Virus record (IMG/VR): IMGVR_UViG_3300048446_000361
Coordinates: 1-34,915 of that record
DNA: 34,915 nucleotides
From: a virus
Strand: one strand, 5' to 3'
The position numbers and the translations under genes are program-made. Under the pieces are notes generated by a model. It did no database searches. It worked only from the letters and a program-made list of their open reading frames with translations, and was not told the DNA's origin. This document shows, piece by piece, positions 21,601 through 34,915 of this stretch. Positions within the stretch are counted from its first letter, which is position 1, and each line of letters starts with the position of its first letter.

Positions 21601-24600
21601 GAACCTTGCAGTTCACTTGTGATCTAGATGGTAATACAGTACAGAAAGCATACCCACGTGCTGAATATGATTATCCATCTGGGCGCTGGTTACCGATTAG
21701 TAATGTAACTACAAATACATTTGATATCAACGTTGGTCCTTCTTCCTATAAAGGTGCTCACACATTTACTGGAGCTACCTCTAGTGGTGTTCGCAGACAA
21801 GACGGAACGTTCACTATCAACGTTGGTACATCATCCGACACAAGCGTACATACCTTTGTGGGAGCAACTACTGATGCAGTAAGACATCTTCCACAATCTA
21901 CACATACGTTTATTACTGCTGCTGCAGATTCAGTTAAGCACTTACCACAATCTGCTCACACCTTTGTGAGAGCAAATCAAAATGCACTGGAAGTTTATCC
22001 TCCAGGTTCTGCACCTCTATGTGCAAGCATTGCATCAAACATTGCCACTTCAATGAATCTGTTTGAGTCTATTCTTGATGGAACGATTCAAGCAGGAGCA
22101 ACAACACCAACATATGGTACGTTGTATGTTACAGACAATGTAATCACATATCCAGATTCTTTCATCTATGATCTAGATGATGTCAGAATGGCTGTTCGTG
22201 GTACATATAACGATAACCCGATTATTGAGGCATCTCCATACACCCAAAACGCATCTGTTATCTCCTTCCTAGGTGGTGGCGGTGCTGAGATTGATGGTGA
22301 CAAGGTTAAGCAACCTAACTGCCCCTTCCCTGGTCTTGAGATCGACGGAACAGCATCTTTCCCCAATCAGGGTAAGTCGATGGTTGCATCGGCGTTCACG
22401 ATCGTTTCTTTCGGTGGTACAGGTTATAAGATTATTAATGATGGTTACACCCAGTTAGTTTCTGTATTCTGTATTTTCTGTGCTGATGGTGTTCTTTCTG
22501 AGTCTGGTGGTTATTGTTCCATCACGAACTCTGCTACAAACTTTGGTATCTATGCTCTGAGAGCAACTGGTTTCCGTAGAGATCCATACGTCTTTGACGC
22601 TGGTTACTTTGCTAGTGGAACTTATATCCGTGCAACTATCACTAATGTCTCGCAGACACCTACAGGAAGAACAATCTTTACGATTGAAAACCTAGGTCGC
22701 GAACCTCTGGAGCACTATATCCTCAAGGTTGATGGTTACACTAACTCCGATGAAGATACCGAATACTTTATCGACGAAATTACTCAAGTTGGTGCAGGTC
22801 CACCGTTCACATCTACATGTATCTTTGATGACGGTTCTGGTGGTGCAGTAAGTCTTATCGATAACGCCACTGGTCAAGCCGTTACGCCTGCTGCTCTTGA
22901 TGGTGCCACAGTTAATCTTCATAGACCATCTATTGTTAACTCCTCGGCACATACCTGGGAATTTGCTGGTTCGGGAACGAACTACTTGGCACTACCAGAA
23001 AATGGTGGTGTTAAAGTTGAAGCAAATGAGCAATTCAACGAAAATTATGGTCGTGTTTATTGCTCTGGTACTGATGAACTTGGTGACTTCAAGGTTGGTA
23101 CATTTGCTAAGATCGAGAACAGAACTGGTAACATTACCTTCACGGGTACAGTTACAATTTCGGAAGTTGAATTCTTGAAACTGAAAGGTGGCGACGTTGT
23201 TGTCACAGGTTTCGATGATGCTAATACACTTGGTGGTGCTAATTCTTCTAACAGTAAGATCCCAACACAGAAGGCAGTTAGAGACTTCATCACTAATAAC
23301 CTTGGTGCATACATCCAGAAAGAATATTCAACCAACTCTGTTCCTAGAGCACTGGTCGAACTAACTGATTCTGGTAAGATTTCACTTGATCAGATTCCTG
23401 CACTACGTCCTTTCCAAGTCTTCACGATTGCTGATCAAGCAGAAAGACTTGCAATTGAAGGAGCTCTTGCTGGTGATATTGCAATTGAACAAGATACATC
23501 TACATCGTTCATTCTAAACAATGATAACGGTAGTCAGTTCTTGTCATTCCAAGTTGACCCAAGTCTAACATTTACTCTCAATGATATTTTTGAGGGTAGC
23601 GTTTCTGGTGGTCAGATTCAAGCAACGGAATACAGACAGGGTGTTCTTTACCAAATCAATATCACTGATCCTGGTAGTGGATACACACAACCTCCAGTTA
23701 TTACAATCTCTGGTGGATCTCCACAAGCAGGTTCAGTTTCTGCTATTGCTGGTTGTACTATTGCTAATGGTCAACTTGTCACCATTACTATCCTAGAGCA
23801 AAACAGTTACGTTGGTGGTAAAGGATACAGTGTTGCTCCCGTTATTAACATTGCTGCTCCTCCAGGAGGAGGTACACAAGCAACAGCACTTGGTCTAATT
23901 GAAAGTAGACTTTACGGTAATATTGTCAACAACGTCAAAATTACTGATACAGATACATTTGATTCTAGCGATATTCCTAATGTTAGTGTTAACATTAATA
24001 GAGCAATCAACACATCTTCCAGTAATATTAACAACTGGGTGAGTCTATCAACCACTACTGTTGATGCTAGAGATATTACAGGTGGTCCTATTGCAACTGA
24101 CTTGCTGTCAACCAATTCAACTTCTGCAAACTCAAACACCTTCTTGAGAGGAGACCAATCTTATGCATTGGTAGTACAATCAATTAAAGGTCCAGAAGAA
24201 AGATACTTCGCGAAACTAGCTGTTCCAGCACAAAGTGGTGGAGTCAGTATGATCTTCTCTACCAACCAGAATGCACTGAAAGGTCATATTGTTAAGAACA
24301 GTGTTACTGGTATTCAAGAAGATACGATTATCAATTCTGTTATTACAGAAAATAGTCTCACCACACTCACTTTTGATCAATCAAAAGCACTGACATCTAC
24401 AATTCCAGCTGGAACAATTATTGAGTTTACTAGAGCTGCTTCTCCAATCAGATTTGACTCTACGTTTACTCAAGGTAACTTTGTTGAAGAAGTTATCATT
24501 GCTAACGGTGGTAGTGGATTTACTAACGGTACATATTACAACCAATTGATTACTGGTGGTACTGGTACTGGATTTAAACTAACACTTATTGTTGCTAATA

Positions 24601-27311
24601 ATGCAGTTGATGAAGTCATCATCACTACAGGCGGTACTGGTTATACAACCGACTTCCAAGTTAATACTGCTCCAACTGATCTTGGTAGTGGTACAGGATT
24701 AGATCTCAGATGTAAGATTTCTACAATCAATAGACAGTATGCAAACGTTACTGTTGATATTGATAGAGTAGTTCAAGCATCACTTGACCCAGAATATGGT
24801 ACAACAGGTGTTGCTAGATTTGATAAGGCACAGTTCTTTATCGGTGATGCAGGTGATGGTTCTATCAGACTGAAGACTGCTTCTAACAGTATTGACTCTG
24901 GTCTAGACGCTGACCTTCTGGATGGCAAGCAAGGTTCGTTCTATCAGAATGCTGGTAGTTTGACTGCTGGTACAATTGATTCTGATAGATTAGCAGGAAC
25001 CTATAATATTAATATTTCTGGTCAGTCCCAGAAATGTATCAGACTACTAACTGCTACTTCTCAACCATCTTCCAACCCATCTCCTAATACTTTCGCTGAA
25101 GGTATTATTGTTAACACCAAGAACAACAACAGTAACCAGCTTCTAGACGGTGGCACCAAGCATATGGTGCTGACGCTAAGACCTGGACCTGACGCTACTT
25201 TTGGTGGTATCAGACAGTTGGCATTTACTGATAATGACAACATGTGGTTGCGTGGTTCAGGAACGGGTGTTACCACATTCGGTACATGGGCACAAATTTG
25301 GACATCTGAAAACGACGGTATTGACACTGGTCTAGATGCTGACAAACTAGACAACCGTGAAGGTACTTGGTATCAGAATGCACTAAACATTAACTTCGGA
25401 GAAATTTCTGCTAATAGAGTTCCTACTTTCTTGAAGGCAACTGGATTCAGAAATGAAATCAAAGTTAAATCTTTTAATGGAGATCCTAAGTATCAGATTT
25501 ACGTCTCTGGTAAAGTTCTAACTTCTCTGCCTGCTCCTAACCCATTCACTCCTGGTAGCACGGTCAATATCTACAACGCACAATCTCAAGCAGTTGGTCT
25601 AATTGAGATTGATAACGTTATTGTTAATGATGACCTTAATGATAACAGAAATGATTACACTATCCTAATTGGTAGACTAACTAACGGCAACTTCACTGGA
25701 GCGGTCACAATTGGTACTGCTGCCGTACCTGTTGTATTCCATGACTTCAGTATCTACGATGGCAATACTATTGACGTTGTAACTATCGAAAGTGATGGTG
25801 GAACAGGTAATCTTCGCTTAGGTAGAAAAGATAACGTTGCTTCAAACCCTGGAATCTATTTCAGTTCTTCATCTCTTGCTGCTAACTACAATGCATCTAT
25901 CGTTGCAACTGGTGGTACTGCAACTGATGGTTCTGGTACACTGAATGTTCAGGTTGCATCTGCGGATGGTTTTGGTGTTAACGGTAACGTTGTTTGGAAC
26001 GAAGGTAACGTCCAATTCAATTCAACCAATGTTCTAGGAACTGCGGTTATTCGTGACAATACTGGATCATTTGAAGCACACAAAATTACTTTGGTTGCTG
26101 ATGCAAATGGCATTGAAGGAGAAGTAGTTGGTAAAGCAACTGCTAACGTCCTCAAAGAAGGTGATACGATGTCTGGCACACTGAACATCAGTGGTGCTGC
26201 ATCCAATCTTTCGGTTCAAGGAACTACAGGTCTAACAGGTAATGTCACACTAACAAGTGATCTTACAGTTGCAAGCGACGTTCTCTATGTTGATTCTGCT
26301 AATGAAGAAGTTGGTGTTGGTACAAACAATCCATCAGATAAGTTAAGTCTAGTTGGTGGTTCTTTCTCAGTCAATTCTGGATCGGGTGGTAACTCACTTA
26401 CAACAGCACAGGGTCTTGGACTTACATATGACTCTGCCACAAGTCGTGGTTATATTATTGCTAAGTCCACCACAACTTCCACAGACATCACTTTCGCTAC
26501 TTCTAATAGCGGAACACTACTTGATAAGATCAGATTAGATGCGACAGGTGATTTCTTCCCATTGACTGCTACGCAAGATCTGGGTCTAAATTCTACTAAC
26601 AACATCTATCGTAATGCATATATCAGAAATGTATACGCTAAAGATAAGGTAACCATTCAAGATGCTGGTGGTAACGATGGAGCTCCTGCATACTTCCTTG
26701 GTGCATCTGGTTTCCGTAACTTCCGTGTTGGTAGTCAACTGCTTGCAGACGACACCTTCGAGATTACACCAAGCACCACTAATGGTGGACAGGTTTGGGG
26801 AGCCACTCCTGCACTGTTTATCAAGGGTTCAACTAATAGAGTTGCAATCAATACCACTAACTTTAATGGTACTGACACTTCAGGTTCCACGCCAGTTGTT
26901 AGAGATTATCAACTAAATATTCAAGGCGACCTTAACTTTAATGGTCAACTGTTCCAGAACAACGAAGAATTCGTTACTTCTAGATGGACACTAAACAAAA
27001 ATACTAACAACATCTGGAGAATTTCTAGAGTTGGTATTAACCAGGCAAATCCAGATTATCAACTGGATGTCAACGGTAGTCTTAATGTTCGTGGATCTAC
27101 ATTTGTTTCTGGATCAAATACTGATGTAATTACTGTTAACGGTGATGTTCAGTACGTTGATACTTATGGCGTCTTCAAGACAAACCGTAATACAGTTAAT
27201 GAGAATGTGACTATTCCTGCAAATACCAATGCAGTATCTGCGGGTCCACTGACTATAAATAATAACATAACAATTACCATTGCAAACGGAAGTTCCTGGA
27301 GTGTTGTATAA
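15612..27311 (+). CDS. Giant modular tail-fibre-like protein, 3899 aa
   Basis: The ATG at 15612 follows a purine-rich possible Shine-Dalgarno. Domains in order: two GSGY-type modules 43 residues apart (from about residues 70 and 113); a DRSDKIATTEYV block and the start of a beta-helix-like region (about 295, GRIYVSSQIGNDLNDGRS); a helical domain (about 783) interrupted by four ~85-aa repeats (from 826) and short His-Thr repeats; a second helical domain (about 1470-1575); one divergent plus four further repeats (1579-2050) and more His-Thr repeats; a strongly patterned block around ISFLGGGGAEIDG and GKSMVASAFTIVSFGGTGY (about 2215-2320); a fibre motif IPTQKAVRDFITNNLG (about 2550); more GSGY modules; two DSGLDADLLDG / DTGLDADKLDN modules (about 3097 and 3237); and terminal fibre motifs NEEVGVGTNNPSDKL and NPDYQLDVNGSLNV. 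No enzyme motif is visible. This is a host-contacting fibre or sheath-like appendage. The next gene starts immediately after its stop. Confidence 0.85.
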   Translation: MSFNINSDKEFISGSRPQFIGTTQFSIRAGTGVDEKEVIRTLLDSEEKLPRVGINRTGQRVNNIAILTQGSGYTVEPTVTVGPPPQGENAKQALASAFIFNGRIVNIAVNDPGSGYSTAPSVVITGGNGAGASAEAFLDTVDFELDINGAIRTSTSIISDTARILNLDIDNFVTPDLNLRGPNLKNYVNNTGTIWVANTIVQKDVYRYFGANVYQSLNAGQTGPNAPEHLDGIVLNNEVNFKHIGFRVVDENAFGYNETGEAGIFPRSITPLLGDRSDKIATTEYVLNLATNDVGGRIYVSSQIGNDLNDGRSAVNPVRSIKKAAQLAWETPGVKETIIVSGGDYVEDNPISLPPDASVVGDNLRLVIVRPNNPGKHIFKFGDKNYVIGVTYRDKIDANGDAISTWDFAMVFDDKQRINVDSEVNGDFGVNFPIGHQVFGPDKFRIDFQNNTGLSQLVSGLEAVGVNTGARGDISNVVFSTIIGNNAYQNGSLDVEITSGSFLEGEGFRYIIGGTQGASLTSSTGTVGVNQFAITSNPTPAGLIVGAYIYLDGTANSEVGQGFYEIIQIDDDNEPTQWEITVAPLLSSIGWRDTAAGNINIYAASITEGSFDSTKIRSIRAEGEVVFQDDDYTTPLPIVRMDFSLQGDPSIATGGFQNTQFGDAEDLGGVVFYTSALSGRQNFHDFKEGQEILIEGLSTSAPDLSFLNGRQRIYKVIEDADGRARRFVIPKKVPAGLGLNANNNFDPGQFAVVKSASRSVTLSLLNSPNKFPLAQPVDRRFQDAAIFIRNNREFIADEVVGRINREFAQDYHSVYSIGGQSFGSYTASDATYNPATGEFVITMASHGLSVGEGIRIADNSFVFTCAMDGNATEHSLPESTQYASGKSLPILESTTNTVTVNVGASGPNQYYTPSNASYDPTLGTLQLIIGSHSLTPGEGVVIDNNSLSFKCAMDGYDSVKTYPRAGIDPYASRSIPITSVTADSITLQVGISRENFSMTPTAVTYNAATGDMTVDVGQHGLGVGRSVVLNDNSFTFTCDLDGNTVQKTYPRPGQDPYAGKSIAITSVGTTSHTPTDVDYDASTGDIEMTINSHGFSTGDYIKVDDGSLVFTCALDGNVAQKAYPRAGFDLPSGRWLEITVVDSSNIRFNVGPSSYTGLHTWISAAADAVKRQDGTFTINVGDAGAASGSNHVWIAAASGAIKHEPRANHLFQGSTTNAIRHLPQSAHTFVRSTSNGITTGGSSFKIYLGNTDHIHTYVSGGTVTFGGNDYAITSFDYDSVVTGVAEITTTSSIPGLAEDDIVKLADLLISCDAGTKVYPSYSSPTSGNNVNLSNGDEQCRQDLNHFMNAVIRDLEFGTNHNVIDSAKKFIVNDKITYIEDEIVQNVRAIEYARELIRYAVCNWRTENRTPADPIYTPVYSGVTRYFDDTVITSTAGTPACANVISAIDVLSYLWVDVITNNASGTQLDAAYLIARNADLIADQALLDTKSAYPTLNLSDVMERKCKRDIKIVLEGLAKDLVLGGNSGIVAVAESYFAGAALVAIPEAQREETIYAYQRVQLHAIAAMRNWTGGNVIDVTPNTAQYNSSTGQLSLTITDPGLTITANDRIAFKEGALTFNCAYGGGGDHSNPRPGDANYGKSQPIISASSAGGVTTIVCNVGNAGLAAGLTHTLTSALTDGTIIIYDPIETTSVIPQFEDWNILIDINGTASSIQITPESATYDPATGLFVVTSTGHSVAQGDQVQIAPESVVFTCAMDGNQTEHALPSSGQDAYNNILTVDSVTANTFTIDVGESGSDIQFTPSDVSYDPATGDLEINVGPHTLSVGEGIVIADNAFTFTCDMDDNQSQKTYPRLGIDPYAGRSMPITSTSATTITVNAGASGPNKFFTPSAAVYDPATGAMTLTVGQHGLGQWRNVTIANNSFTFTCAADGNATQHTYPRSGQDPFADNKSIAITDVGFTAHTVTDADYNASTGNVELTISNHGFANGDYIMVLDGTLQFTCDLDGNTVQKAYPRAEYDYPSGRWLPISNVTTNTFDINVGPSSYKGAHTFTGATSSGVRRQDGTFTINVGTSSDTSVHTFVGATTDAVRHLPQSTHTFITAAADSVKHLPQSAHTFVRANQNALEVYPPGSAPLCASIASNIATSMNLFESILDGTIQAGATTPTYGTLYVTDNVITYPDSFIYDLDDVRMAVRGTYNDNPIIEASPYTQNASVISFLGGGGAEIDGDKVKQPNCPFPGLEIDGTASFPNQGKSMVASAFTIVSFGGTGYKIINDGYTQLVSVFCIFCADGVLSESGGYCSITNSATNFGIYALRATGFRRDPYVFDAGYFASGTYIRATITNVSQTPTGRTIFTIENLGREPLEHYILKVDGYTNSDEDTEYFIDEITQVGAGPPFTSTCIFDDGSGGAVSLIDNATGQAVTPAALDGATVNLHRPSIVNSSAHTWEFAGSGTNYLALPENGGVKVEANEQFNENYGRVYCSGTDELGDFKVGTFAKIENRTGNITFTGTVTISEVEFLKLKGGDVVVTGFDDANTLGGANSSNSKIPTQKAVRDFITNNLGAYIQKEYSTNSVPRALVELTDSGKISLDQIPALRPFQVFTIADQAERLAIEGALAGDIAIEQDTSTSFILNNDNGSQFLSFQVDPSLTFTLNDIFEGSVSGGQIQATEYRQGVLYQINITDPGSGYTQPPVITISGGSPQAGSVSAIAGCTIANGQLVTITILEQNSYVGGKGYSVAPVINIAAPPGGGTQATALGLIESRLYGNIVNNVKITDTDTFDSSDIPNVSVNINRAINTSSSNINNWVSLSTTTVDARDITGGPIATDLLSTNSTSANSNTFLRGDQSYALVVQSIKGPEERYFAKLAVPAQSGGVSMIFSTNQNALKGHIVKNSVTGIQEDTIINSVITENSLTTLTFDQSKALTSTIPAGTIIEFTRAASPIRFDSTFTQGNFVEEVIIANGGSGFTNGTYYNQLITGGTGTGFKLTLIVANNAVDEVIITTGGTGYTTDFQVNTAPTDLGSGTGLDLRCKISTINRQYANVTVDIDRVVQASLDPEYGTTGVARFDKAQFFIGDAGDGSIRLKTASNSIDSGLDADLLDGKQGSFYQNAGSLTAGTIDSDRLAGTYNINISGQSQKCIRLLTATSQPSSNPSPNTFAEGIIVNTKNNNSNQLLDGGTKHMVLTLRPGPDATFGGIRQLAFTDNDNMWLRGSGTGVTTFGTWAQIWTSENDGIDTGLDADKLDNREGTWYQNALNINFGEISANRVPTFLKATGFRNEIKVKSFNGDPKYQIYVSGKVLTSLPAPNPFTPGSTVNIYNAQSQAVGLIEIDNVIVNDDLNDNRNDYTILIGRLTNGNFTGAVTIGTAAVPVVFHDFSIYDGNTIDVVTIESDGGTGNLRLGRKDNVASNPGIYFSSSSLAANYNASIVATGGTATDGSGTLNVQVASADGFGVNGNVVWNEGNVQFNSTNVLGTAVIRDNTGSFEAHKITLVADANGIEGEVVGKATANVLKEGDTMSGTLNISGAASNLSVQGTTGLTGNVTLTSDLTVASDVLYVDSANEEVGVGTNNPSDKLSLVGGSFSVNSGSGGNSLTTAQGLGLTYDSATSRGYIIAKSTTTSTDITFATSNSGTLLDKIRLDATGDFFPLTATQDLGLNSTNNIYRNAYIRNVYAKDKVTIQDAGGNDGAPAYFLGASGFRNFRVGSQLLADDTFEITPSTTNGGQVWGATPALFIKGSTNRVAINTTNFNGTDTSGSTPVVRDYQLNIQGDLNFNGQLFQNNEEFVTSRWTLNKNTNNIWRISRVGINQANPDYQLDVNGSLNVRGSTFVSGSNTDVITVNGDVQYVDTYGVFKTNRNTVNENVTIPANTNAVSAGPLTINNNITITIANGSSWSVV
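15819..15990 (+). repeat. Two GxGYxxxPxV modules at the N-terminus of the giant fibre
   Basis: Residues 70-78 (GSGYTVEPT) and 113-121 (GSGYSTAPS) begin two modules 43 residues apart, each followed by a short beta strand and a Gly/Ala-rich turn. Similar modules recur near 23670-23860 and 24490-24670 in the same gene, and in gp8, the DUF4815-type protein and the 1295-aa protein. Confidence 0.65.
17955..20330 (+). other. Two copies of a helical domain, the first interrupted by the repeat array
   Basis: Copy 2 (about 20010-20330) has AYLIARNADLIADQALLDTK, KCKRDIKIVLEGLAKDLVLGGNS and a following helix. Copy 1 is in two pieces: DAAIFIRNNREFIADEVVGR (about 17958-18017) and QCRQDLNHFMNAVIRDLEFG (about 19624-19683). 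Between them lie about 1.6 kb of repeat units. The pattern C-x-RD ... D-L-x-G-x-N is shared by both copies. Confidence 0.6.
18087..19323 (+). repeat. Repeat block 1: units A-D plus four His-type short repeats
   Basis: Units start at 18087 (A), 18345 (B), 18606 (C) and 18828 (D). Each follows the pattern Y-[DN]-x3-G-x10-H-x9-G, then FxCxxDG, then (in B-D) a YPR or similar motif and a closing VG strand. After D, from 19086, four short repeats of about 17 residues follow, of the form H-x-[FW]-x5-A-[IV]-x-H-x-P-x-[SA]. Most units carry one Cys at a fixed position. Confidence 0.8.
20346..21990 (+). repeat. Repeat block 2: divergent unit E, units F-I plus four His-type short repeats
   Basis: Unit E starts at 20346 and is divergent. 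F, G, H and I start at 20757, 21015, 21276 and 21501, and the short His repeats at 21759. F-I match A-D in order and length: start offsets are 2670, 2670, 2670, 2673 and 2673 bp for A/F, B/G, C/H, D/I and the tail. D and I share PSGRW, VGPSSY and RQDGTFTINVG. C and H share a 20-bp exact match (18705-18724 and 21375-21394). The two blocks are therefore one duplicated super-unit. Confidence 0.8.
22080..22650 (+). other. Strongly patterned beta-rich block in the giant fibre
   Basis: Residues about 2157-2346 contain ASVISFLGGGGAEIDG, PNCPFPGLEID, FPNQGKSMVASAFTIVSFGG and SESGGYCSITNSATNFGIYA. I recognise this only as a segment that recurs in cyanophage structural proteins. The regular strand-turn pattern suggests beta-helix rungs, perhaps continuing the beta-helix-like start near residue 295. 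Confidence 0.45.
27254..27261 (+). promoter_or_regulatory. Perfect late promoter octamer TATAAATA inside the 3' end of the giant fibre gene
   Basis: TATAAATA lies 51 bp before the ATG of the first glycine-rich adhesin gene, within the last 20 codons of the preceding gene. It is identical to the octamer before gp8. It would allow the adhesin cassette to be transcribed separately from the 11.7-kb fibre gene. Confidence 0.65.
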
Positions 27312-28061
27312 ATGAGTAGCATATTTGTAAACAATTTAAAATCTACAACAGGAAATACTATTCTGATTCCAGCTGGACACTCTTTGTCTCTAGATGGTTC
27401 AGTTGTTACAGGTCAGTCTTTGATTCCTAGTCCATCTGGACAAGCAGGAAAACTTATCAGATCTGATGGAAGTAATTTAGGATGGGGTGAAACTGGTGCT
27501 AAAAACATCATTCAATTTACCCAATCTGGAACTTATACTCCTTCCGCTGGTACTAGACTAGCTCATGTTAGAGTTGTTGGTTCTGGTGGTGGCGGTTCTG
27601 GTTATGCAGAATCTGGTGGATCTGGAGGTTATGCCGAAGGATTCTTTGATATGACAGGTGTTAGTTCTGTCACTATCAGTGTTGGTAATGGTGGTTCTGC
27701 AACCTATTACTCTGGTAGTGCTGGTACTGGAGGAGCTGTTAGTTTCGGCAATTATATTACCTGCAATGGTGGAGCTGGTGCCAACAGCACTGCTCAACAT
27801 TGTGGAGGAATTGGTGGATCAGCATCAGGTGGAAATATGTCTTTCTATGGTGGCGGCGGTTGCGGTCACGGTTACAATAGTAGGGCAGGTTCTAACTGGT
27901 TTGGTGGAGCTGGTGCTAATGGTCACCCTCAAGGTGGAGCATATGCCAATAATCATAGATCACATTCTGTTCCAGGAACAGGTGGTGCTAATGGTTGGGC
28001 TCGTAGCTACCCTGGCAATGTCGGTATTGAAGGTCAAGTAGTAATTTGGGAATATAGTTAA
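27312..28061 (+). CDS. Glycine-rich tail-fibre adhesin paralogue 1, 249 aa
   Basis: The ATG directly follows the stop of the giant fibre gene. The N-terminus (about 1-60) has a VNNLKSTTGNTILIPAG pattern and SLSLDGSVV, then an SPSGQAGKL block; it probably serves for trimerisation or attachment. A QSGTYTPSAG strand leads to the phage glycine-rich domain (about 90-249): GGGGSGYAESGGSGGYAEGF, MTGVSSVTISVGNGG, QHCGG, FYGGGGCGH and GGAGANGHPQGG. The Gly runs between variable His/Asn/aromatic segments resemble the polyglycine-II layered adhesins of T-even-like phages (gp38 type), which bind the host receptor at the fibre tip. That assignment is by pattern, not alignment. The stop overlaps the next ATG by one base. 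Paralogues 2 and 3 follow. Confidence 0.8.
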   Translation: MSSIFVNNLKSTTGNTILIPAGHSLSLDGSVVTGQSLIPSPSGQAGKLIRSDGSNLGWGETGAKNIIQFTQSGTYTPSAGTRLAHVRVVGSGGGGSGYAESGGSGGYAEGFFDMTGVSSVTISVGNGGSATYYSGSAGTGGAVSFGNYITCNGGAGANSTAQHCGGIGGSASGGNMSFYGGGGCGHGYNSRAGSNWFGGAGANGHPQGGAYANNHRSHSVPGTGGANGWARSYPGNVGIEGQVVIWEYS

Positions 28062-28825
28062 TGTCAATTTTAAGAGTAAATGAAATCAGGTCCCAATCGG
28101 GAAATACTATTACTGTTCCATCTGGATACCAGTTGTCATTGGATGGCAGTATTGTCAACTCAAATTCACTTCCTCCAGATCCATCTGGACAAGCTGGTAA
28201 ATTTTTACAAGCAAATTCAAGTGCCACCAGCACTGGATGGGTAAACGTTGGTCCAGATGCTATTAGAGTATTTACATCCAACTCAACTTGGACTAAACCA
28301 TCTGGTATCACTAAAATTTTAGTTAAAGTTGTTGGTGGTGGTGGATCAGGATCTGGTGTTGGCGAAAATGGTGCAGCAGGTGGTTATTCAGAAAGATTGA
28401 TTGATGTAACAGGTGTAACAAGCGTTAACGTTACCATTGGTACTGGAAGTACCGCTTCCACATATTATGCAAATACTGCGGGTGCTGGTTCTGCATCTTC
28501 GTTTGGATCTTTTATATCCTGTAGTGGAGGAAAGGGTGGAAACCAATCACATCAACATTGTGGTGGACTTCCTGGTGTAGGAACTGGTGGAGATTTCAAC
28601 ATGTATGGTGGTGGCGGAAACGGTCACATGTACTGGTCTGGTCCTCCTGGTGGTAGTTCTTACTGGGGTGGAGCAGGTGCTACTGGGCACCCTCAAGGTG
28701 GCGACTATGCTTATCAACATAGTTCGCATGCTCCGCCAGGATGCGGCGGACCCGCTGGTTACCATACTTCCCGACGTGGAGCAAATGGTAGAGATGGTAT
28801 GGTTGTTGTTTACGAATTTAGATAG
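28061..28825 (+). CDS. Glycine-rich tail-fibre adhesin paralogue 2, 254 aa
   Basis: The architecture matches paralogue 1: VNEIRSQSGNTITVPSGYQL and SLDGSIV at the N-terminus, an NSTWTKPSGITKILVKVVGG strand, then the Gly-rich domain with DVTGVTSVNVTIGTGS, QHCGGLPGVGTGG, MYGGGGNGH and GGAGATGHPQGG. The framework is conserved, but the segments after GGGGNGH (MYWSGPPGGSSYW), after GHPQGG (DYAYQHSSHAPPGC) and before the C-terminus (GYHTSRRGANGRDG) differ from the neighbours. Those segments are candidate receptor-binding loops. The start uses a TAATG overlap. It shares exact 39-bp and 30-bp tracts with paralogue 3. Confidence 0.8.
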   Translation: MSILRVNEIRSQSGNTITVPSGYQLSLDGSIVNSNSLPPDPSGQAGKFLQANSSATSTGWVNVGPDAIRVFTSNSTWTKPSGITKILVKVVGGGGSGSGVGENGAAGGYSERLIDVTGVTSVNVTIGTGSTASTYYANTAGAGSASSFGSFISCSGGKGGNQSHQHCGGLPGVGTGGDFNMYGGGGNGHMYWSGPPGGSSYWGGAGATGHPQGGDYAYQHSSHAPPGCGGPAGYHTSRRGANGRDGMVVVYEFR

Positions 28826-29341
28826 ATGTCAACACTTAATGTAAATCGAATTGAATCGTCTGACGGTTCTAGTATTCTAGTTCCTGCTGGATATTCACTC
28901 AGTATCGATGGTACTGTGATGAATAAGGATACGCTACCGCCAAGTCCTAGTGGACATTCAGGCAAATTCCTATTCAGTGATGGAACAAACCTAACATGGT
29001 CTGTTGCTGGTCCAAAAAGTATGCAGCAATTTATTTCCAACGGTACTTGGACTAAACCAGCTGGAATCACTAAAATTCTTGTAATGGTACAAGGTGGCGG
29101 TGGTGCTGGTAGTGGTCACTCAGAATCTGGTGGCGCTGGTGGGTATACCGAAAAATTGATTGATGTAACAGGTGTAACAAGCGTTAACGTTACTGTAGGT
29201 GCGGGTTCCACTAGCTGGTCTTATTATTCAGGTGCGGGTGGCGGAGGTGCTTCTTCTTCATTCGGAAGTTATTGTTCTGCTACTGGTGGTAAAGGCGCTA
29301 ATACAACAAACCAACATTGTGGTGGACTTCCTGGTGTAGGA
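28396..29341 (+). repeat. Exact 39-bp and 30-bp tracts shared by adhesin paralogues 2 and 3
   Basis: A 39-bp tract is identical at 28396-28434 and 29155-29193 and encodes the DVTGVTSVNVT strand. A 30-bp tract is identical at 28553-28582 and 29312-29341 and encodes QHCGGLPGVG. Both encode framework, not variable loops. Synonymous identity over these lengths suggests recent recombination, gene conversion or recent duplication. Confidence 0.85.
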
Positions 29342-29590
29342 TCTGGTGGAGATATTAATCTCTATGGTGGCGGTGGTACTGGGCATATGTCTTGGGCATG
29401 TATGAAAGGAGGAAGTTCTTTCTTTGGTGGTGCTGGTGTAGGTGGTCACCCTAGGGGTGGTAATATTATTCATGCCAATGATGATAAAGCAGCATATGGT
29501 TCGGGTGGACCTGGTGGATATACTAGTAACTCAACTACTAAAGCTGCAAGAGGCAAACATGGAGTCGTAGTTGTCTACGAATATACTTGA
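28826..29590 (+). CDS. Glycine-rich tail-fibre adhesin paralogue 3, 254 aa
   Basis: The ATG abuts the stop of paralogue 2. The N-terminus has VNRIESSDGSSILVPAGYSL, SIDGTVM and an SPSGHSGKF block, then NGTWTKPAGITKILVMVQGG, the Gly-rich region with SGGAGGYTEKLIDVTGVTS, QHCGGLPGVGSGG, LYGGGGTGH and GGAGVGGHPRGG, and a VVVVYEYT end. The loops differ from the other two: MSWACMKGGSSFF, NIIHANDDKAAYGS and GYTSNSTTKAARGKHG. The C-terminal VVxxYEx ending is common to copies 2 and 3. It probably has the same adhesin role with different receptor specificity. A late promoter octamer overlaps its stop codon. Confidence 0.8.
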   Translation: MSTLNVNRIESSDGSSILVPAGYSLSIDGTVMNKDTLPPSPSGHSGKFLFSDGTNLTWSVAGPKSMQQFISNGTWTKPAGITKILVMVQGGGGAGSGHSESGGAGGYTEKLIDVTGVTSVNVTVGAGSTSWSYYSGAGGGGASSSFGSYCSATGGKGANTTNQHCGGLPGVGSGGDINLYGGGGTGHMSWACMKGGSSFFGGAGVGGHPRGGNIIHANDDKAAYGSGGPGGYTSNSTTKAARGKHGVVVVYEYT

Positions 29591-29621: not shown

Positions 29622-30089
29622 ATGAAAAGCGTACTTATTGATACTAAGGGTCATATTAATGATGTTGTAGAACCAGGTCAAGAATTTCCTGTATTTACTG
29701 GTCCTGGTGCTGTTTGCTGTTGGGTAACTTGTCAAGATGATAATGTTACCTCATGCTGGTTGATGACTAATAAGACCTGGTTGGCACCAGAAAACCGTTA
29801 TGAAAACGGTCAAAGTGTCAAGCGCCAAATTGCTTATGGGGAAGTGGGCGAACAGTTGGACATGATGTATAAAGATCAACTCAATGGTACTACCAATTGG
29901 AGAGATCATGTCAATACTGTTAAGTCAACCATTCAATCTGAAGCTGCTTTTGCTGCAGATGACAGAAACAGAGTAGGTAAAACTGAAGTTAAACTTCATG
30001 ATGATTCCAACCCTGCATGGTTGCATCTTCCAGAAGGTGATAACATTATTGAAAATATTCCAACGGGTGTTGTATACGAAACTGAGTAA
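29622..30089 (+). CDS. Small conserved cyanophage protein, possible fibre assembly factor, 155 aa
   Basis: The N-terminal half (about 1-60) is a small beta domain with DTKGHINDVVEPGQEFPVF and a Cys-rich GAVCCWVTCQDDNVTSCW. The middle (about 70-105) has GEVGEQLDMMYKDQLNGTTN and then WRDHVNTVKSTIQ. I recognise the QLDMMY-x-D-x-x-NGTT pattern from many small phage proteins encoded next to tail-fibre genes, where it often ends a fibre-associated protein. There is no signal peptide or membrane helix. Its position right behind the adhesins fits a fibre-assembly or accessory role, but this is inferred. The gene is preceded by a candidate late promoter. Confidence 0.65.
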   Translation: MKSVLIDTKGHINDVVEPGQEFPVFTGPGAVCCWVTCQDDNVTSCWLMTNKTWLAPENRYENGQSVKRQIAYGEVGEQLDMMYKDQLNGTTNWRDHVNTVKSTIQSEAAFAADDRNRVGKTEVKLHDDSNPAWLHLPEGDNIIENIPTGVVYETE

Positions 30090-30098
30090 TAAATTATC

Positions 30099-31673
30099 AT
30101 GAATGTAAATTCGGTATGCATCGTAGGGGGTGGTTCCTCTGGGTGGATGACTGCTGCACTTTTAGCATACAATCTACCAAATTTAAAAATTACTGTAATT
30201 GAACCAAAAGACATTGCAACTGTAGGTGTAGGTGAATCTACCTTAGGTCACATTAATAGATACTTAGACTGTATTGGACTTACTGGCAAAGATTCTGAAT
30301 GGATGCCAGCATGTGATGCTACATATAAAGTTTCTATTCAGTTTACTGATTTTAGAAAGAAAGGCACTCGTTTTCAATACCCATTTGGGCAAGTTGACTA
30401 CACTAATAAAGTTGGAACTGATGATTGGGATTATATTAAAAATCTACATGAAGATACAGATTTTTCAGAATTCTATAATCCAATTACATACCTAGCAGAT
30501 AACAATGTGATGACGGGTGATGCTGCTATCATCAGAAATTTTAATTTTACTAAAGATACAGCATATCATTTTGATGCTACCAAATTTGGTGCATGGTTAA
30601 AAGATAACATTTGTATTCCTAGGGGTGTTAATGTAGTACGAGATAGCGTTGCTAAGATCTTCCGAAAAACTAATGGAAGTGATGAGGTTGACTTTCTGCA
30701 ATTGAAAGGATCTCCAATGCTAAAGATCGAAGCAGATCTTTTTATTGATTGTACTGGATTTAAATCTTTGCTGTTGGAACAGGAGATGGGATCTGAGTTT
30801 ATTAGTTTCAATGATGTATTGTTAAATGATACTGCTATTGCTACTCGCATTCCTTTCGTAGATAAAGAAAAAGAATTACATAACACTACAGACTGTCATG
30901 CTTTACAATATGGTTGGGTATGGAATATTCCTCTGTGGTCCCGAATCGGTACTGGTTACTGCTACTCTAGCAAGTTTACTACAGATGAACTTGCAGAGAA
31001 AGAATTCAGAAAACATTTAGCAAAATCTGATGTCAAGCGAGCAGAAGAAGCAGAATTCTTCAAGATTGATATTAGACATGGAAAAAGAAAAAAAGCATGG
31101 GTTAAAAATGTAGTTGGTATTGGATTGTCATATGGATTTCTAGAACCTTTGGAATCTACTGGACTTTTAACAACACATGAAAATGCTTTACGATTGCTAG
31201 CAACTTTAGAAAAACGTAATGGTTTAGTTAAGCGTCCAGACATTGAAGGATATAATCTTGCTGTAGATCAAGACATCGAAAGTATGAAAGGATTTATTGC
31301 TATGCATTATTTGCTTTCAGAAAGAAAAGATTCTACTTACTGGAAATATCTAACAGAAGAAATTGAATTTCCTGAGATGTATGATATGATTGTAAGAAGT
31401 CCTAGACTTTATCAAGAATTTGTTTATGGAACTTCTGCATATAATAACTGGGGAAGTTTAGATGGTCTTTTGTATATTGCTGCTGGAATGGGCATGCGAC
31501 CTTTGGGTACTACCGAATGCAAGTATAGATTGAGAGATGGATTCGTAAATGCTGAAGCATTGGAAGAATCTTACAATAAGCATATTCATTATAAAGAACA
31601 GGTATTGAAACATGTCGAAAAGATGCCTAGTACATTTGAATTTTTGAGAGATAATGTTTACAAATCCATTTAA
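30099..31673 (+). CDS. prnA-like: Flavin-dependent tryptophan-halogenase-like protein, 524 aa
   Basis: These enzymes use reduced FAD, O2 and chloride or bromide to form hypohalous acid, which is guided through the protein to halogenate tryptophan or another aromatic. The FAD-binding motif is VCIVGGGSSGWMTAALL (residues 6-22). GVGEST follows at 43-48. Lys77 in WMPACDATYKVSIQF aligns by context with the catalytic Lys79 of PrnA. WVWNIP (273-278) is the WxWxIP motif typical of halogenases rather than monooxygenases. FLEPLESTG (Glu349, Glu352) matches the loop holding the catalytic Glu346 of PrnA. The length of 524 aa is normal for the family (about 510-550). No flavin reductase is visible nearby, so the host would have to supply FADH2. 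The substrate is unknown. The next gene overlaps by 20 bp. Confidence 0.9.
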   Translation: MNVNSVCIVGGGSSGWMTAALLAYNLPNLKITVIEPKDIATVGVGESTLGHINRYLDCIGLTGKDSEWMPACDATYKVSIQFTDFRKKGTRFQYPFGQVDYTNKVGTDDWDYIKNLHEDTDFSEFYNPITYLADNNVMTGDAAIIRNFNFTKDTAYHFDATKFGAWLKDNICIPRGVNVVRDSVAKIFRKTNGSDEVDFLQLKGSPMLKIEADLFIDCTGFKSLLLEQEMGSEFISFNDVLLNDTAIATRIPFVDKEKELHNTTDCHALQYGWVWNIPLWSRIGTGYCYSSKFTTDELAEKEFRKHLAKSDVKRAEEAEFFKIDIRHGKRKKAWVKNVVGIGLSYGFLEPLESTGLLTTHENALRLLATLEKRNGLVKRPDIEGYNLAVDQDIESMKGFIAMHYLLSERKDSTYWKYLTEEIEFPEMYDMIVRSPRLYQEFVYGTSAYNNWGSLDGLLYIAAGMGMRPLGTTECKYRLRDGFVNAEALEESYNKHIHYKEQVLKHVEKMPSTFEFLRDNVYKSI

Positions 31674-32436
31674 GAAAAAAAGATCTATTAGATTTCATAC
31701 ACTACATCCAGGTGCAAATACTTTCTATCCTATAATTAATTCATCAAAATTAAATAGAGATTGGGTACAAGAAGAAAAAGAAGATTATAAAAAAAGATCT
31801 AAATGCCCATTTGGTTTTGGAGAACCACCAGCACATAGTATCAATAAATGCCCTGCTATTCATATGATTATGAATCAGGGATATATTATTAAAACTCCAT
31901 TTGATATTAATGTTACTAGAGTAGATGATAAATTAGAGGTTCAAGCATCTAATCTTATTCCACATCTTCCAAGTGTAGTAACACATGGCGAAGAAGTTTC
32001 TAAATGGTTGTTAGATAGTTCTAAAGATAATACTGCACCAGAAATATTAAAAGTCAATACACCATGGCGTGTTACTACAAATGATAATGACTTAATTTTT
32101 CTAGTTGTTAAAGTTCCTCACACTAAAGAAGATAGATTTTCTGCAGTGATGGGTGTCATGGATCCAAAAACTGCTTTTGAAATTAATGTGCAGTTGCTTT
32201 GGCATTTGCCTAAAAATGAAAGTTCTACTATTAAAGCAGGAACACCATTGTGTATGTACATTCCAATGTCAAGACAGTATCTAAACACATCTTTTGTATG
32301 TGAGGATGCAGACGAGAGAGACTGGAATGTTGAGAAAGAAATGACCTATTCATATACACATGTCAATTCATCTACTAACACATTAGGAGATCGAGTATCA
32401 AGAGTTGTAAAAATTCTAAAAAAATATTATGATTGA
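31654..32436 (+). CDS. DUF6065-like protein of unknown function, 260 aa
   Basis: The ATG lies inside the last codons of the halogenase gene (20-bp overlap), so translation is probably coupled. The centre, INKCPAIHMIMNQGYIIKTP (about 67-86), then a beta-rich stretch with NTPWRVTTNDNDLIFLV and AFEINVQLLWHLPK, resembles the DUF6065 family as I remember it, a beta-barrel-like protein of unknown function. An intact AGTPLCMYIPMSRQ follows near residue 199. No membrane helix is visible. Being between a halogenase and four oxygenases suggests a partner or substrate-handling role. The family name is a moderate-confidence recall. Confidence 0.6.
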   Translation: MFTNPFKKKRSIRFHTLHPGANTFYPIINSSKLNRDWVQEEKEDYKKRSKCPFGFGEPPAHSINKCPAIHMIMNQGYIIKTPFDINVTRVDDKLEVQASNLIPHLPSVVTHGEEVSKWLLDSSKDNTAPEILKVNTPWRVTTNDNDLIFLVVKVPHTKEDRFSAVMGVMDPKTAFEINVQLLWHLPKNESSTIKAGTPLCMYIPMSRQYLNTSFVCEDADERDWNVEKEMTYSYTHVNSSTNTLGDRVSRVVKILKKYYD

Positions 32437-33016
32437 TTTATTCCCTGTTCAAATTTACAAAGGTCATATTGAACAAGAAGATAATATCTTGTATGACCAA
32501 GTTAAAAAATTTCTAGAAGGTACTACAAAAAATTTGTGGACAGGTGAATCTGGATGGAGTACTGGAGAAAAAAGTCTTGCTTTGTGGGAACATGTACATC
32601 TAGATCCTTTGTTTAAATCTATGATGCCATCTGTATATGAGTATTGGGATGCTTTAGATTATATTCCTGCTGATATTACTGTACAATCATGTTGGTCAAA
32701 TTTACATAACTCTAATGATGTAACAGAAGAACACTCTCATTGTGATGGATTTCGTGGCGCTAATATTTTATCTGGTGTATACTACCTGAGGAAACCCACC
32801 GAAGCAAATATAAGATTCATTAATCCTTTGGAATATATTCTGCGAATGACACCATATAGTACTATGCAGGGTATTAAATCAATATCAACTGAAGTTGAAT
32901 GCAGTGAAGGTGACTTCTTGTTATGGCCGTCTTGGTTAAAACATAGAGTTGAACCATCAGAATATGATGGAGAACGTATCGCAATTTCTTTTAACTTTAG
33001 TGGTAACCCACAATGA
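32429..33016 (+). CDS. 2-oxoglutarate/Fe(II)-dependent oxygenase-like protein, 195 aa (copy 1)
   Basis: Family members use Fe(II), O2 and 2-oxoglutarate, usually to hydroxylate a substrate. The fold markers resemble the TIGR02466 / 2OG-FeII_Oxy_5 family: FPVQIYKG at the N-terminus, EEHSHCDGF with ANILSGVYYLRKP, then LLWPSWLKHRVEP and ERIAISFNF at the C-terminus. Candidate ligands are His104 and Asp106 (HxD) and His172, with Arg183 as the likely 2-oxoglutarate carboxylate contact. The length of 195 aa is typical. The gene overlaps its upstream neighbour by 8 bp and the next by 4 bp. It is closely similar in layout to the 33774 gene, so the two are paralogues. Substrate unknown. Confidence 0.85.
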   Translation: MIDLFPVQIYKGHIEQEDNILYDQVKKFLEGTTKNLWTGESGWSTGEKSLALWEHVHLDPLFKSMMPSVYEYWDALDYIPADITVQSCWSNLHNSNDVTEEHSHCDGFRGANILSGVYYLRKPTEANIRFINPLEYILRMTPYSTMQGIKSISTEVECSEGDFLLWPSWLKHRVEPSEYDGERIAISFNFSGNPQ

Positions 33017-33777
33017 TATTTTTGAGGATGGATCCTAGTTCGGTAGATTTTCCGAAACTGATCAAAACAAACAAACTTCAATACGAAGAGGTAAAGGTAA
33101 CAGATGATATTTCATATTACGAAGTCCACGAAATCTTTGAGAGTGATGGGTTCGATCGATTCCAAAACTTTATTCAGTCTAATCCTATCTGGAGGATGAA
33201 CAACGAACCAGACCTACCAGACATGAATCCGTTTTCCACAATTCATTTACCTATGTGGGCAACGAAAGAATTGTTTTCTATGGTCTCAGAACTATACGTA
33301 AAGACAGCAAAACATATTCCATCATATAGAACTGACACTTTTCTTTCTAACCAAGATTGGGGAAACATTTATTTTAAAGAAGAATGTAGACCTATCAAAA
33401 AATGGAGACTGCCTCATATAGATTTTGTTGCTGGCATGGCTGCTAACATGTGGTTTACTGATCATACTCCTGGATCTTCAGGAACTGTTTTGTGGAAATA
33501 TGTTGGCGGCGAGATTCAGAATGGTGTATTTGAATATCAAGGAAACCCAGAGCACCCTAGATATGCTGAGTGGCATGCTATGGATCCATTAGATAGAGAT
33601 ACACATTGGACTAATTTTACTGAGGAAGAAGGTAGATATTGGGGATTTGAATCTATTGGTTTTGTGCCATCTAAATATAAATGTATGACCTGCTACCCTG
33701 CAAACGTACCACATACACCATACATCGATAACCAAATTGATTTTCGATGGTCTCATACATTTTGTGCTATTGAATGA
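33013..33777 (+). CDS. 2-oxoglutarate/Fe(II) oxygenase-like protein, 254 aa (divergent)
   Basis: The ATGA start overlaps the previous stop. The protein has WRLPHIDFVAGMAANMWF, giving His135-x-Asp137, then NVPHTPYIDNQIDFRWSHTF, giving His234 and Arg245. This is a full HxD...H...R set in the right order and with the usual Arg offset of about 11 residues from the distal His, as in prolyl-hydroxylase-like 2-oxoglutarate oxygenases. The rest is rich in Trp and Tyr and does not resemble the TIGR02466-type neighbours. I assign the fold from motif only. It lies in the same coupled operon as the other oxygenases. A different substrate is likely. Confidence 0.7.
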   Translation: MIFLRMDPSSVDFPKLIKTNKLQYEEVKVTDDISYYEVHEIFESDGFDRFQNFIQSNPIWRMNNEPDLPDMNPFSTIHLPMWATKELFSMVSELYVKTAKHIPSYRTDTFLSNQDWGNIYFKEECRPIKKWRLPHIDFVAGMAANMWFTDHTPGSSGTVLWKYVGGEIQNGVFEYQGNPEHPRYAEWHAMDPLDRDTHWTNFTEEEGRYWGFESIGFVPSKYKCMTCYPANVPHTPYIDNQIDFRWSHTFCAIE

Positions 33778-34352
33778 ATTTAGAATATATTTTTCCGACA
33801 CCTATTTGGTCGTTTGAACATACAGAAGGTTGTAGAGAAATGACAACCTATATCAAGAATGTTAAAAAAGAATCTGAAGGTAGAATAGTATCAAACGATG
33901 GTGGATGGCAATCTAACGATTTCGTACCAGGTGATCTTCCAGAATGTTTCCGACCTTTTATTAGAAATATACTTTCTAAGTGTAGATTGTGTGTACATGA
34001 ATATGGTTCTGATTATACACCATGGATAGACAATCTTTGGTTTAATATTAACAAGAAGGGTGACTCAAATAAAAGACATTTTCATGCAGAGTCTTTATTG
34101 TCTGGTGTATTCTATCTCCAGTGTACTGATGATAGTGGCAGAATTCAATTTGTCAAACAACCACTAGAAGATTACGCAGTTATATCTCATCTAGGAAAAC
34201 CTAGAATAACTAAACTATCAGCGTCTGCTTGGGAATATATTCCAACAGAATCTATGTGTCTTCTATTCCCATCATGGTTGATGCATCAGGTAGAGTCCAG
34301 TAATAGCGACACAGAAAGAATTTCTATAGCATTTAATATCAAAGTATCATGA
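33774..34352 (+). CDS. 2-oxoglutarate/Fe(II)-dependent oxygenase-like protein, 192 aa (copy 2)
   Basis: This is a clear TIGR02466 / 2OG-FeII_Oxy_5 type: FPTPIWSFEH at the N-terminus, PWIDNLWFNINKKGDSNKRH leading into HFHAESLLSGVFYLQ, then LLFPSWLMHQVESSNSD and RISIAFN. Candidate metal ligands are His104 and Glu106 (HxE rather than HxD) and His171, with Arg182 for 2-oxoglutarate. All lie at or within one residue of the same positions as in the 32429 product, which supports common origin. The gene has ATGA overlaps at both ends. The family often occurs in cyanophages near structural genes; its substrate is unknown. Confidence 0.88.
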   Translation: MNLEYIFPTPIWSFEHTEGCREMTTYIKNVKKESEGRIVSNDGGWQSNDFVPGDLPECFRPFIRNILSKCRLCVHEYGSDYTPWIDNLWFNINKKGDSNKRHFHAESLLSGVFYLQCTDDSGRIQFVKQPLEDYAVISHLGKPRITKLSASAWEYIPTESMCLLFPSWLMHQVESSNSDTERISIAFNIKVS

Positions 34353-34915
34353 AAATAATTGACAATTTTTTGCCTGTTAGTGCAGCAGAAGACATAGAAA
34401 CTACAATGACTGGGGAAGGATTTCCTTGGTATTATGTTTCTGATGTAACTAGAGAACGCCGAGTTGAAGGAGCATACTCTCAACCAGGGTTTCATCATAC
34501 GCCATTCATGAACTATAGACCCCAGTCACCTTTTCATGATTACTTTAAAATGCTGGCAATGTCAATTAAAGATGCAATTGGTCACGATGGTGATCTACAT
34601 TTGTTTAGAATTAGAGCAGGATTGAATATTGCAAATTCTAATAGCAATAAAGACTGGAAACAAGAATATAATTTTCCACATGTAGATCAAAATTCTGATT
34701 TTGTTACTTGTAAATCATATACCTGTTTGTATTATGTAAATGAAAGTGATGGTGATACTTTTATTTTTGATCAAACTGAAGAATCAAAGAACTATACTAC
34801 ACGTCATAGAGTAACTCCACATAAAAATAGAGTTATGATTTTTGATGGAGAGCAATATCATGCTAGTTCTTCTCCAGTAGTAAATGATGTACGTATAGCA
34901 ATTACATTTAATTTT
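34349..34915 (+). CDS. 2-oxoglutarate/Fe(II) oxygenase-like protein, 3' end outside window
   Basis: The ATG overlaps the preceding stop (ATGA) and the frame stays open for 189 codons to the window edge. NFPHVDQ gives His111 and Asp113, GEQYHASSSP gives His171, and DVRIAITFNF gives Arg182. This complete HxD...H...R set and the typical C-terminal RIAITFNF strand show that only a few residues are likely missing. The centre has YTCLYYVNESDGDTFIF, the usual double-stranded beta-helix strand pattern. The N-terminus (MKIIDNFLPVSAAEDIE) fits the prolyl-4-hydroxylase-like subgroup rather than the TIGR02466 type. This is the fourth oxygenase-like gene in a row. Confidence 0.85.
   Translation, partial: MKIIDNFLPVSAAEDIETTMTGEGFPWYYVSDVTRERRVEGAYSQPGFHHTPFMNYRPQSPFHDYFKMLAMSIKDAIGHDGDLHLFRIRAGLNIANSNSNKDWKQEYNFPHVDQNSDFVTCKSYTCLYYVNESDGDTFIFDQTEESKNYTTRHRVTPHKNRVMIFDGEQYHASSSPVVNDVRIAITFNF

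Follow-up and report, generated by a model that had tools for sequence, protein, structure and literature searches.

Cyanophage “tryptophan halogenases” and multiple 2-oxoglutarate (2OG) oxygenases have been catalogued as auxiliary metabolic genes since the early genomes, and their roles have been guessed. Published proposals include protection against antibiotics (PMC2984593, PMC9964418), a role in 2OG and nitrogen status (PMC3037559), and DNA repair. The closest described enzyme, VirX1, has been reviewed as an iodide-preferring halogenase with a large, accessible active site that accepts large phenols and other aromatics (PMC8407142). The closest described gene run is gp38–gp54 of cyanophage syn9, where the published accounts consulted treat the halogenase and the oxygenases as separate auxiliary metabolic genes. 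Here, we describe a similar run in a T4-like cyanophage structural region, the 34,915-nt viral contig IMGVR_UViG_3300048446_000361 from IMG/VR (positions 1–34,915, the whole contig, hereafter “the window”). Like syn9, which has two fibre-tip genes, gp40 (phrog_1787), two halogenases, gp43 (phrog_7084), and many oxygenases, the window carries fibre-tip genes followed by a halogenase/oxygenase cassette. We propose that this region forms the distal half of a movable module for receptor binding, and that its enzymes post-translationally modify the fibre-tip adhesins encoded beside them. We put the probability of this reading at roughly 60%.

The window runs from a baseplate wedge gene (phrog_438) through large fibre genes to three tandem genes for glycine-rich proteins, and then to the cassette. 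One large fibre gene (15612–27311; 3899 amino acids) lies directly upstream of the glycine-rich trio, which we refer to as the fibre-tip adhesins ADH1 (27312–28061; phrog_863, E 1e-39; co-aligned in families A1/A4), ADH2 (28061–28825; Gly_rich_2, PF21722, E 3e-11; phrog_863, E 4e-57), and ADH3 (28826–29590; Gly_rich_2, E 6e-9; phrog_863, E 3e-59). The three adhesin genes and all those described below for the window are on the plus strand. The original prediction described a 509-bp gap between the last adhesin and the cassette. The gap is not empty; it holds a gene for a 155-amino-acid phrog_1787 protein that had been missed (29622–30089; E 1.6e-21), and the halogenase gene starts just 9 bp past its end. 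The cassette itself is real and is laid out as reported, with six same-strand open reading frames (ORFs) from position 30099 to the end of the window, overlapping by 20, 8, 4, 4, and 4 nt. Because their products are conserved as separate proteins in many other phages, at 30%–80% identity, these ORFs are genes rather than chance ORFs. As had been suspected, the cassette continues past the window. A second contig, L002, matches the window over 7481 bases with four mismatches (99.95% identity), and carries downstream the complete sixth gene (L002:6915–7502; 195 amino acids), a JmjC_2 gene, an HxD...H protein gene (OX8), two small ORFs, and then the neck genes gp13, gp14, gp15, and gp16. The full run therefore comprises one halogenase, one accessory protein, and six oxygenase-type proteins.

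How tightly is the cassette tied to the adhesins? The original prediction drew this link from position alone, and it is much strengthened by gene order, presence and absence, and sequence divergence. Profiles of all the block genes were searched against loci retrieved using three anchors: the adhesin, the flavin-dependent halogenase (FDH), and phrog_7084. Some contigs recur between anchors, such that the three sets are not independent samples. Of 50 adhesin-anchored loci flanked by 2.5 kb or more of sequence, 48 have an FDH gene within 4 kb downstream, and the two exceptions are weak adhesin matches. Taken alone, this figure would be biased, since cassette phages supplied the adhesin seeds. 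The other two figures are not built on the adhesin. Where there is enough flank, an adhesin is found upstream in 26 of 27 FDH-anchored loci, and both adhesin and halogenase are found in 53 of 54 phrog_7084-anchored loci. The recurring order is one or more adhesins, phrog_1787, halogenase, dUTPase-fold protein, and oxygenases. The phrog_1787 gene always sits between the adhesins and the halogenase (adhesin followed by phrog_1787, n = 88; phrog_1787 followed by halogenase, n = 80). Across phages, the block has one to three adhesin copies (rarely four), one or two VirX1-type halogenases, and about three to eight oxygenase-type proteins. It occurs in several genomic contexts: before gp13 and at other positions (syn9, P-TIM40), including before helicase/DNA methyltransferase genes. 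In L097 and L100, the enzyme genes are inverted yet still adjoin the adhesins. In INPHARED, all 20 records with an adhesin also carry a halogenase at least 39% identical to that of the window, and phrog_1787 is found in the same 20 records plus one short match; these 20 records represent about nine distinct phages from several genera, and ~460 cyanophage records carry gp13. Thus, in other cyanophages the cassette is not found mostly away from fibre genes; the two are near-inseparable.

The block also moves and diverges as a unit. The S-RIM44 isolates Np_42_0711 and Np_05_0604 are 97%–98% identical from just before gp13 onward. Np_42_0711 has three adhesins, phrog_1787, and a full cassette; Np_05_0604 has instead a different small fibre-tip-type protein (phrog_2415) with a similar MSELRVNSIRS segment at its N terminus, together with just one PF13759 oxygenase and a protein weakly resembling phrog_1787. 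In S-PM2, the slot before gp13 is occupied by other virion structural proteins, with no enzymes. Across 10 loci with gp13, FDH and adhesin distances are strongly correlated (r 0.91; partial r 0.89 given gp13), with 1 of 2000 permutations as high. For example, L003 and L037 have gp13 proteins that are 98% identical, with FDHs and adhesins that are 59% and 61% identical, respectively. Conversely, L044 has a distant gp13 (51%–57%) with an FDH and an adhesin at 56%–69%. The adhesins, phrog_1787, halogenase, and oxygenases are a block that is co-inherited and exchanged together.

The halogenase gene (30099–31673), described as halogenase-like in the original prediction, does encode a tryptophan halogenase family protein (PF04820, E 2e-99, 334 bits against a curated cutoff of 21; phrog_2928, E 4e-156). 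It aligns with VirX1 (6qgm, E 4e-143) at ~45% identity, and the residues expected of the enzyme are at least 95% conserved across 111 relatives: GGGSSGW, W273 in GWVWNIP (the WxWxIP motif), K77, and E349/E352. On sequence, the protein is an FDH of the VirX1 clade, with predicted enzymatic activity. VirX1, which has been crystallised, is itself a cyanophage protein from the same kind of gene block. The translation of Syn10 CPUG_00131 equals the 6QGM sequence, with 530 of 530 residues aligned, and the Syn10 gene order is two fibre-tip genes, a phrog_1787 homologue, a first halogenase, VirX1, a phrog_7084 homologue, and oxygenases. Hence, Syn10 and the window are alike in halogenase clade and gene block, while Syn10 has two halogenase copies and the window has one. 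No account of the gene context or native substrate of VirX1 was found in the literature searched, which did not cover the VirX1 primary paper. Halogenase copy number varies further: four halogenase ORFs lie behind three divergent adhesins in L083 (7105–13400), and an extra pair of halogenase genes lies on the opposite strand 3′ of the cassette in L152, L168 (from a 265-kb contig), L170, L172, L177, L178, L183, L184, L187, and L189.

Most of the remaining cassette genes encode oxygenase-type proteins. Of the four window genes said to carry 2OG/Fe(II) motifs, two fit the description. The prolyl-4-hydroxylase-type gene (34349–34915; PF13640, E 8e-7; phrog_274), which is truncated by the end of the window, encodes H111, D113, H171, and R182, that is, HxD...H and an arginine for 2OG, at least 95% conserved in 112 relatives. 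The phrog_1644 protein (33013–33777; E 5e-20) has its own conserved pattern of H135, D137, H234 (or H248), and R245; neither Pfam nor PDB profiles match it to any oxygenase, and the HxD...H motif alone makes it a probable 2OG oxygenase. The other two genes, OX5a (32429–33016; E 8e-17) and OX5b (33774–34352; E 3e-23), match the oxygenase family PF13759 above its curated cutoff, and phrog_81, and lack the classic HxD...H triad; they carry instead an invariant HxH...H...R (HFH...H...R in OX5b). In OX5a, the invariant residues are H102, H104, H172, and R183, with 3bvc and 2rg4 as PDB relatives. The sequence pattern suggests that the metal ligands of this pair may be three histidines. The solved structures closest to the pair belong to uncharacterised proteins; the HxH...H...R residues (alignment A7) are also aligned in 3bvc.

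Beyond the window, the JmjC_2 protein (L002:7483–8178; PF08007, E 6e-18) has conserved H131, D133, and H195. Its profile matches NO66 (E 6e-15), MINA, YxbC (one relative carries the deposited name “putative asparaginyl hydroxylase”), and YcfD, all annotated as protein hydroxylases. The phage protein shares the profile match and HxD...H with the ribosomal oxygenases NO66, MINA, and YcfD, while its gene adjoins adhesin genes. OX8 (L002:8168–8749), annotated elsewhere as “ferrochelatase” or oxygenase, keeps HxD...H; a PDB profile search gave only weak matches to ferrochelatase (E 0.16) and a TauD-like protein (E 0.72). Several database names in this group look misleading. “DNA endonuclease V” (phrog_274; PHROG/GenBank) sits on prolyl-4-hydroxylase-type oxygenases with HxD...H...R (window 34349–34915, syn9 gp51/gp53, and Sf-CH3_98), and both “ferrochelatase” (OX8) and “minor coat protein” (phrog_1644) are names attached to HxD...H proteins.

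The remaining cassette gene (31654–32436; phrog_7084, E 8e-51; no Pfam match) had been described as DUF6065-like. Sequence searches give no support for this name, which we reject: one of seven family members matches DUF6065, weakly (E 0.08), and the search gave no hits for the window protein. The phrog_7084 protein is instead predicted to have a dUTPase fold. Its structural model is confident (predicted local distance difference test score (pLDDT) 91), and the listed structural matches are all dUTPases (Z 9–10; best Foldseek E 8e-4). It has no sequence family match; a conserved G...D..P stretch in alignment A3 resembles dUTPase motif 3. Two tandem ORFs that resemble this protein by eye (KRGDPLY and CPA motifs) occur at L019:12426–13795, inside a single-adhesin version of the cassette, and L019:10516–11097 resembles a haem oxygenase.

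What are the adhesins? They are 27% glycine and lysine-poor, and a profile search of the PDB found no relative by sequence. The predicted structure of ADH3 (pLDDT 87) matches the cyanophage Pam3 fibre (7ypx) with Z 21.5 and a root-mean-square deviation of 2.5 over 183 residues, leaving the N-terminal 60 residues of the adhesin uncovered; S16/T2 gp38-like tips were not among the fold-search matches. The model thus places the adhesins in the glycine-loop fibre-tip fold of the Pam3 gp24 type, with a predicted role in receptor binding. The Pam3 fibre is folded by a separate chaperone, gp25 (PMC9608196), and for this reason we describe the phrog_1787 protein as chaperone-like. The phrog_1787 family profile had no PDB match, and homology to Pam3 gp25 was not detected; its position makes it a candidate adhesin chaperone. 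Accordingly, the Pam3 gp24/gp25 pair (7YPX) and the window are alike in having this fibre fold followed by a chaperone-like gene, with one to three adhesin copies in the phages considered here. Among 280 distinct adhesin sequences, four polar residues stand out: Tyr134 (275/280), His164 (271/280), His187 (274/280), and His208 (230/280). From the sequence and the description of Pam3, these residues would occupy the glycine-loop apices. In the Pam3 fibre, conservation is lowest at the distal tip (PMC9608196), which makes near-invariant polar tip residues odd for pure receptor contacts; they fit a shared chemistry.

From this combination of linkage and enzyme types, we infer that the adhesin is the substrate. 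The adhesins would be finished post-translationally, either ahead of fibre assembly or in the course of it. Side-chain hydroxylation at the glycine-loop apices would fall to the oxygenases, among them the JmjC protein (histidine/asparagine/arginine-hydroxylase group). The halogenase would add iodine or bromine to an aromatic residue, for which the near-invariant Tyr134 is the best candidate, or else a tryptophan. The phrog_1787 protein may hold the adhesin chain during modification, and the modification may stiffen, cross-link, or tune the binding tip. We also consider a bolder version of this proposal, tentatively and at somewhat under even odds: that the adhesin becomes functional through dedicated, co-inherited halogenation, using seawater iodine or bromine, together with hydroxylation, a chemistry at the fibre tip resembling that of marine bioadhesives, and that the native substrate of VirX1 is the neighbouring adhesin.

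A possible trace of such an enzyme–substrate relationship was seen in the distribution of the JmjC gene. In a first set of loci, Gln163 and Gln210 are lost in all 17 adhesins of two clades that have no JmjC gene, and they are the only 2 of 48 conserved columns lost in both clades. In one of these clades, the loss is parallel in three paralogous adhesin copies. One genome without JmjC, that of Sf-FR1, is complete. JmjC could not be singled out because the second PF13759 oxygenase is also missing in these two clades. When the covariation was retested on 111 additional loci, independent pairs changed in the same direction in four cases, in opposite directions in none, and were unchanged in two, which is not significant (sign test, p 0.125). 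We retain the covariation as a lead.

Several observations weigh against adhesin tailoring. First, no modified adhesin residue has been reported. Second, the virion proteome of S-SZBM1 includes the fibre proteins gp51–54, without the adhesins gp48/49 (PMC9146016), even though gp48 and gp49 each offer eight to nine suitable tryptic peptides; they may have gone undetected because they are scarce, modified, or not part of the virion. Third, two sublineages of the VirX1 clade have no adhesin: in S-H35/S-B64 the halogenase gene adjoins an SbcC-like gene, and in Sf-CH11/CH1a it lies among other tail proteins. More distant phage halogenases sit at other loci. Fourth, the near-invariant apex residues can also be explained as structural. 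Fifth, the related JmjC-lacking loci L148, L149, and L162 keep both Gln163 and Gln210, and L158 keeps Gln163.

Enzyme genes are also found in other arrangements. In Sf-CH11 (L114:7770–13932), the slot before gp13 holds a halogenase (44% identity) and four genes of oxygenase type, bordered by proteins annotated as GspG-C-like and LamG-like; this is perhaps a parallel tailoring module for a different adhesin type. In Pelagibacter phage HTVC008M (L108:1–1898), four minus-strand 2OG oxygenase genes lie directly before gp13, with a halogenase gene between the terminase subunit genes.

If the adhesins are not the target, what might be? The original prediction also named small molecules and the host surface, both of which are less likely. 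The enzymes could make or alter a small molecule, for antibiotic protection by analogy with PrnA and pyrrolnitrin, or in 2OG metabolism. The published proposals of antibiotic protection for the halogenase (PMC2984593; PMC9964418) and of 2OG/nitrogen signalling for the oxygenases (PMC3037559) point this way, as does the acceptance of many small aromatics by VirX1 in vitro (PMC8407142). However, none of these accounts would lead one to expect fibre-tip adhesins to be swapped along with the enzymes, the block shows no export gene, synthetase gene, or further pyrrolnitrin-pathway gene, and the relatives of the JmjC_2 protein hydroxylate proteins, so we regard this explanation as unlikely. Action on the host surface or receptor, such as receptor masking or superinfection exclusion, is about equally unlikely. 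Here, the enzymes would travel with the adhesin because both match one receptor, which would equally produce co-inheritance, and in S-SSM7 the halogenase and oxygenases are near sugar-modifying genes. Yet no transport genes are seen in the block, the JmjC relatives act on intracellular proteins, and the cassette is almost always directly behind the adhesins and the chaperone-like gene.

A third possibility is that the enzymes modify another part of the virion or fibre, that is, the 3899-amino-acid upstream fibre protein or the phrog_1787 protein, rather than the small adhesins. The phrog_1787 gene is linked to the enzymes as tightly as the adhesin is, and the large fibre gene is directly upstream of the block. 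The S-RIM44 isolates argue against the large fibre protein as the target, since it is homologous (51%–59% identity) in the isolates with and without the cassette, while the small adhesins are replaced; in S-PM2, a comparably large gene precedes the small structural proteins, and the slot before gp13 is free of enzymes. We consider this explanation improbable. Finally, it is very improbable that there is no functional link and that fibre and cargo genes are exchanged as one recombination fragment at a hot spot: the slot before gp13 is variable and distant halogenases are located elsewhere, but the block persists at other genomic positions and also where the enzyme genes are inverted (L097, L100), this halogenase clade is almost always missing where the adhesin is missing, and the linkage extends across adhesins down to ~40% identity, which would be surprising for a neutral neighbour.

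What are the implications of adhesin tailoring? The gene run has been visible in public genomes since syn9, and we did not find the cassette–adhesin link in the literature: literature searches on halogenases, tail fibres, and oxygenases in cyanophages, with a coverage that excluded the primary papers on Syn9 (2007) and VirX1 (2019), returned no paper linking them. Chloroviruses and mimivirus encode hydroxylases and glycosyltransferases that act on proteins of their own virions, and the proposed tailoring would be alike in that a virus carries enzymes for its own surface proteins. We know of no halogenase in such a role, so a halogenase that modifies its own virion’s proteins would be new. For genes whose roles have been guessed, placement in a receptor-binding module supplies a concrete substrate hypothesis, including for the studied biocatalyst VirX1. 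If the proposal is correct, host recognition by these phages depends on side-chain chemistry that is not directly encoded in the adhesin gene, and this would bear on both host-range prediction and fibre engineering.

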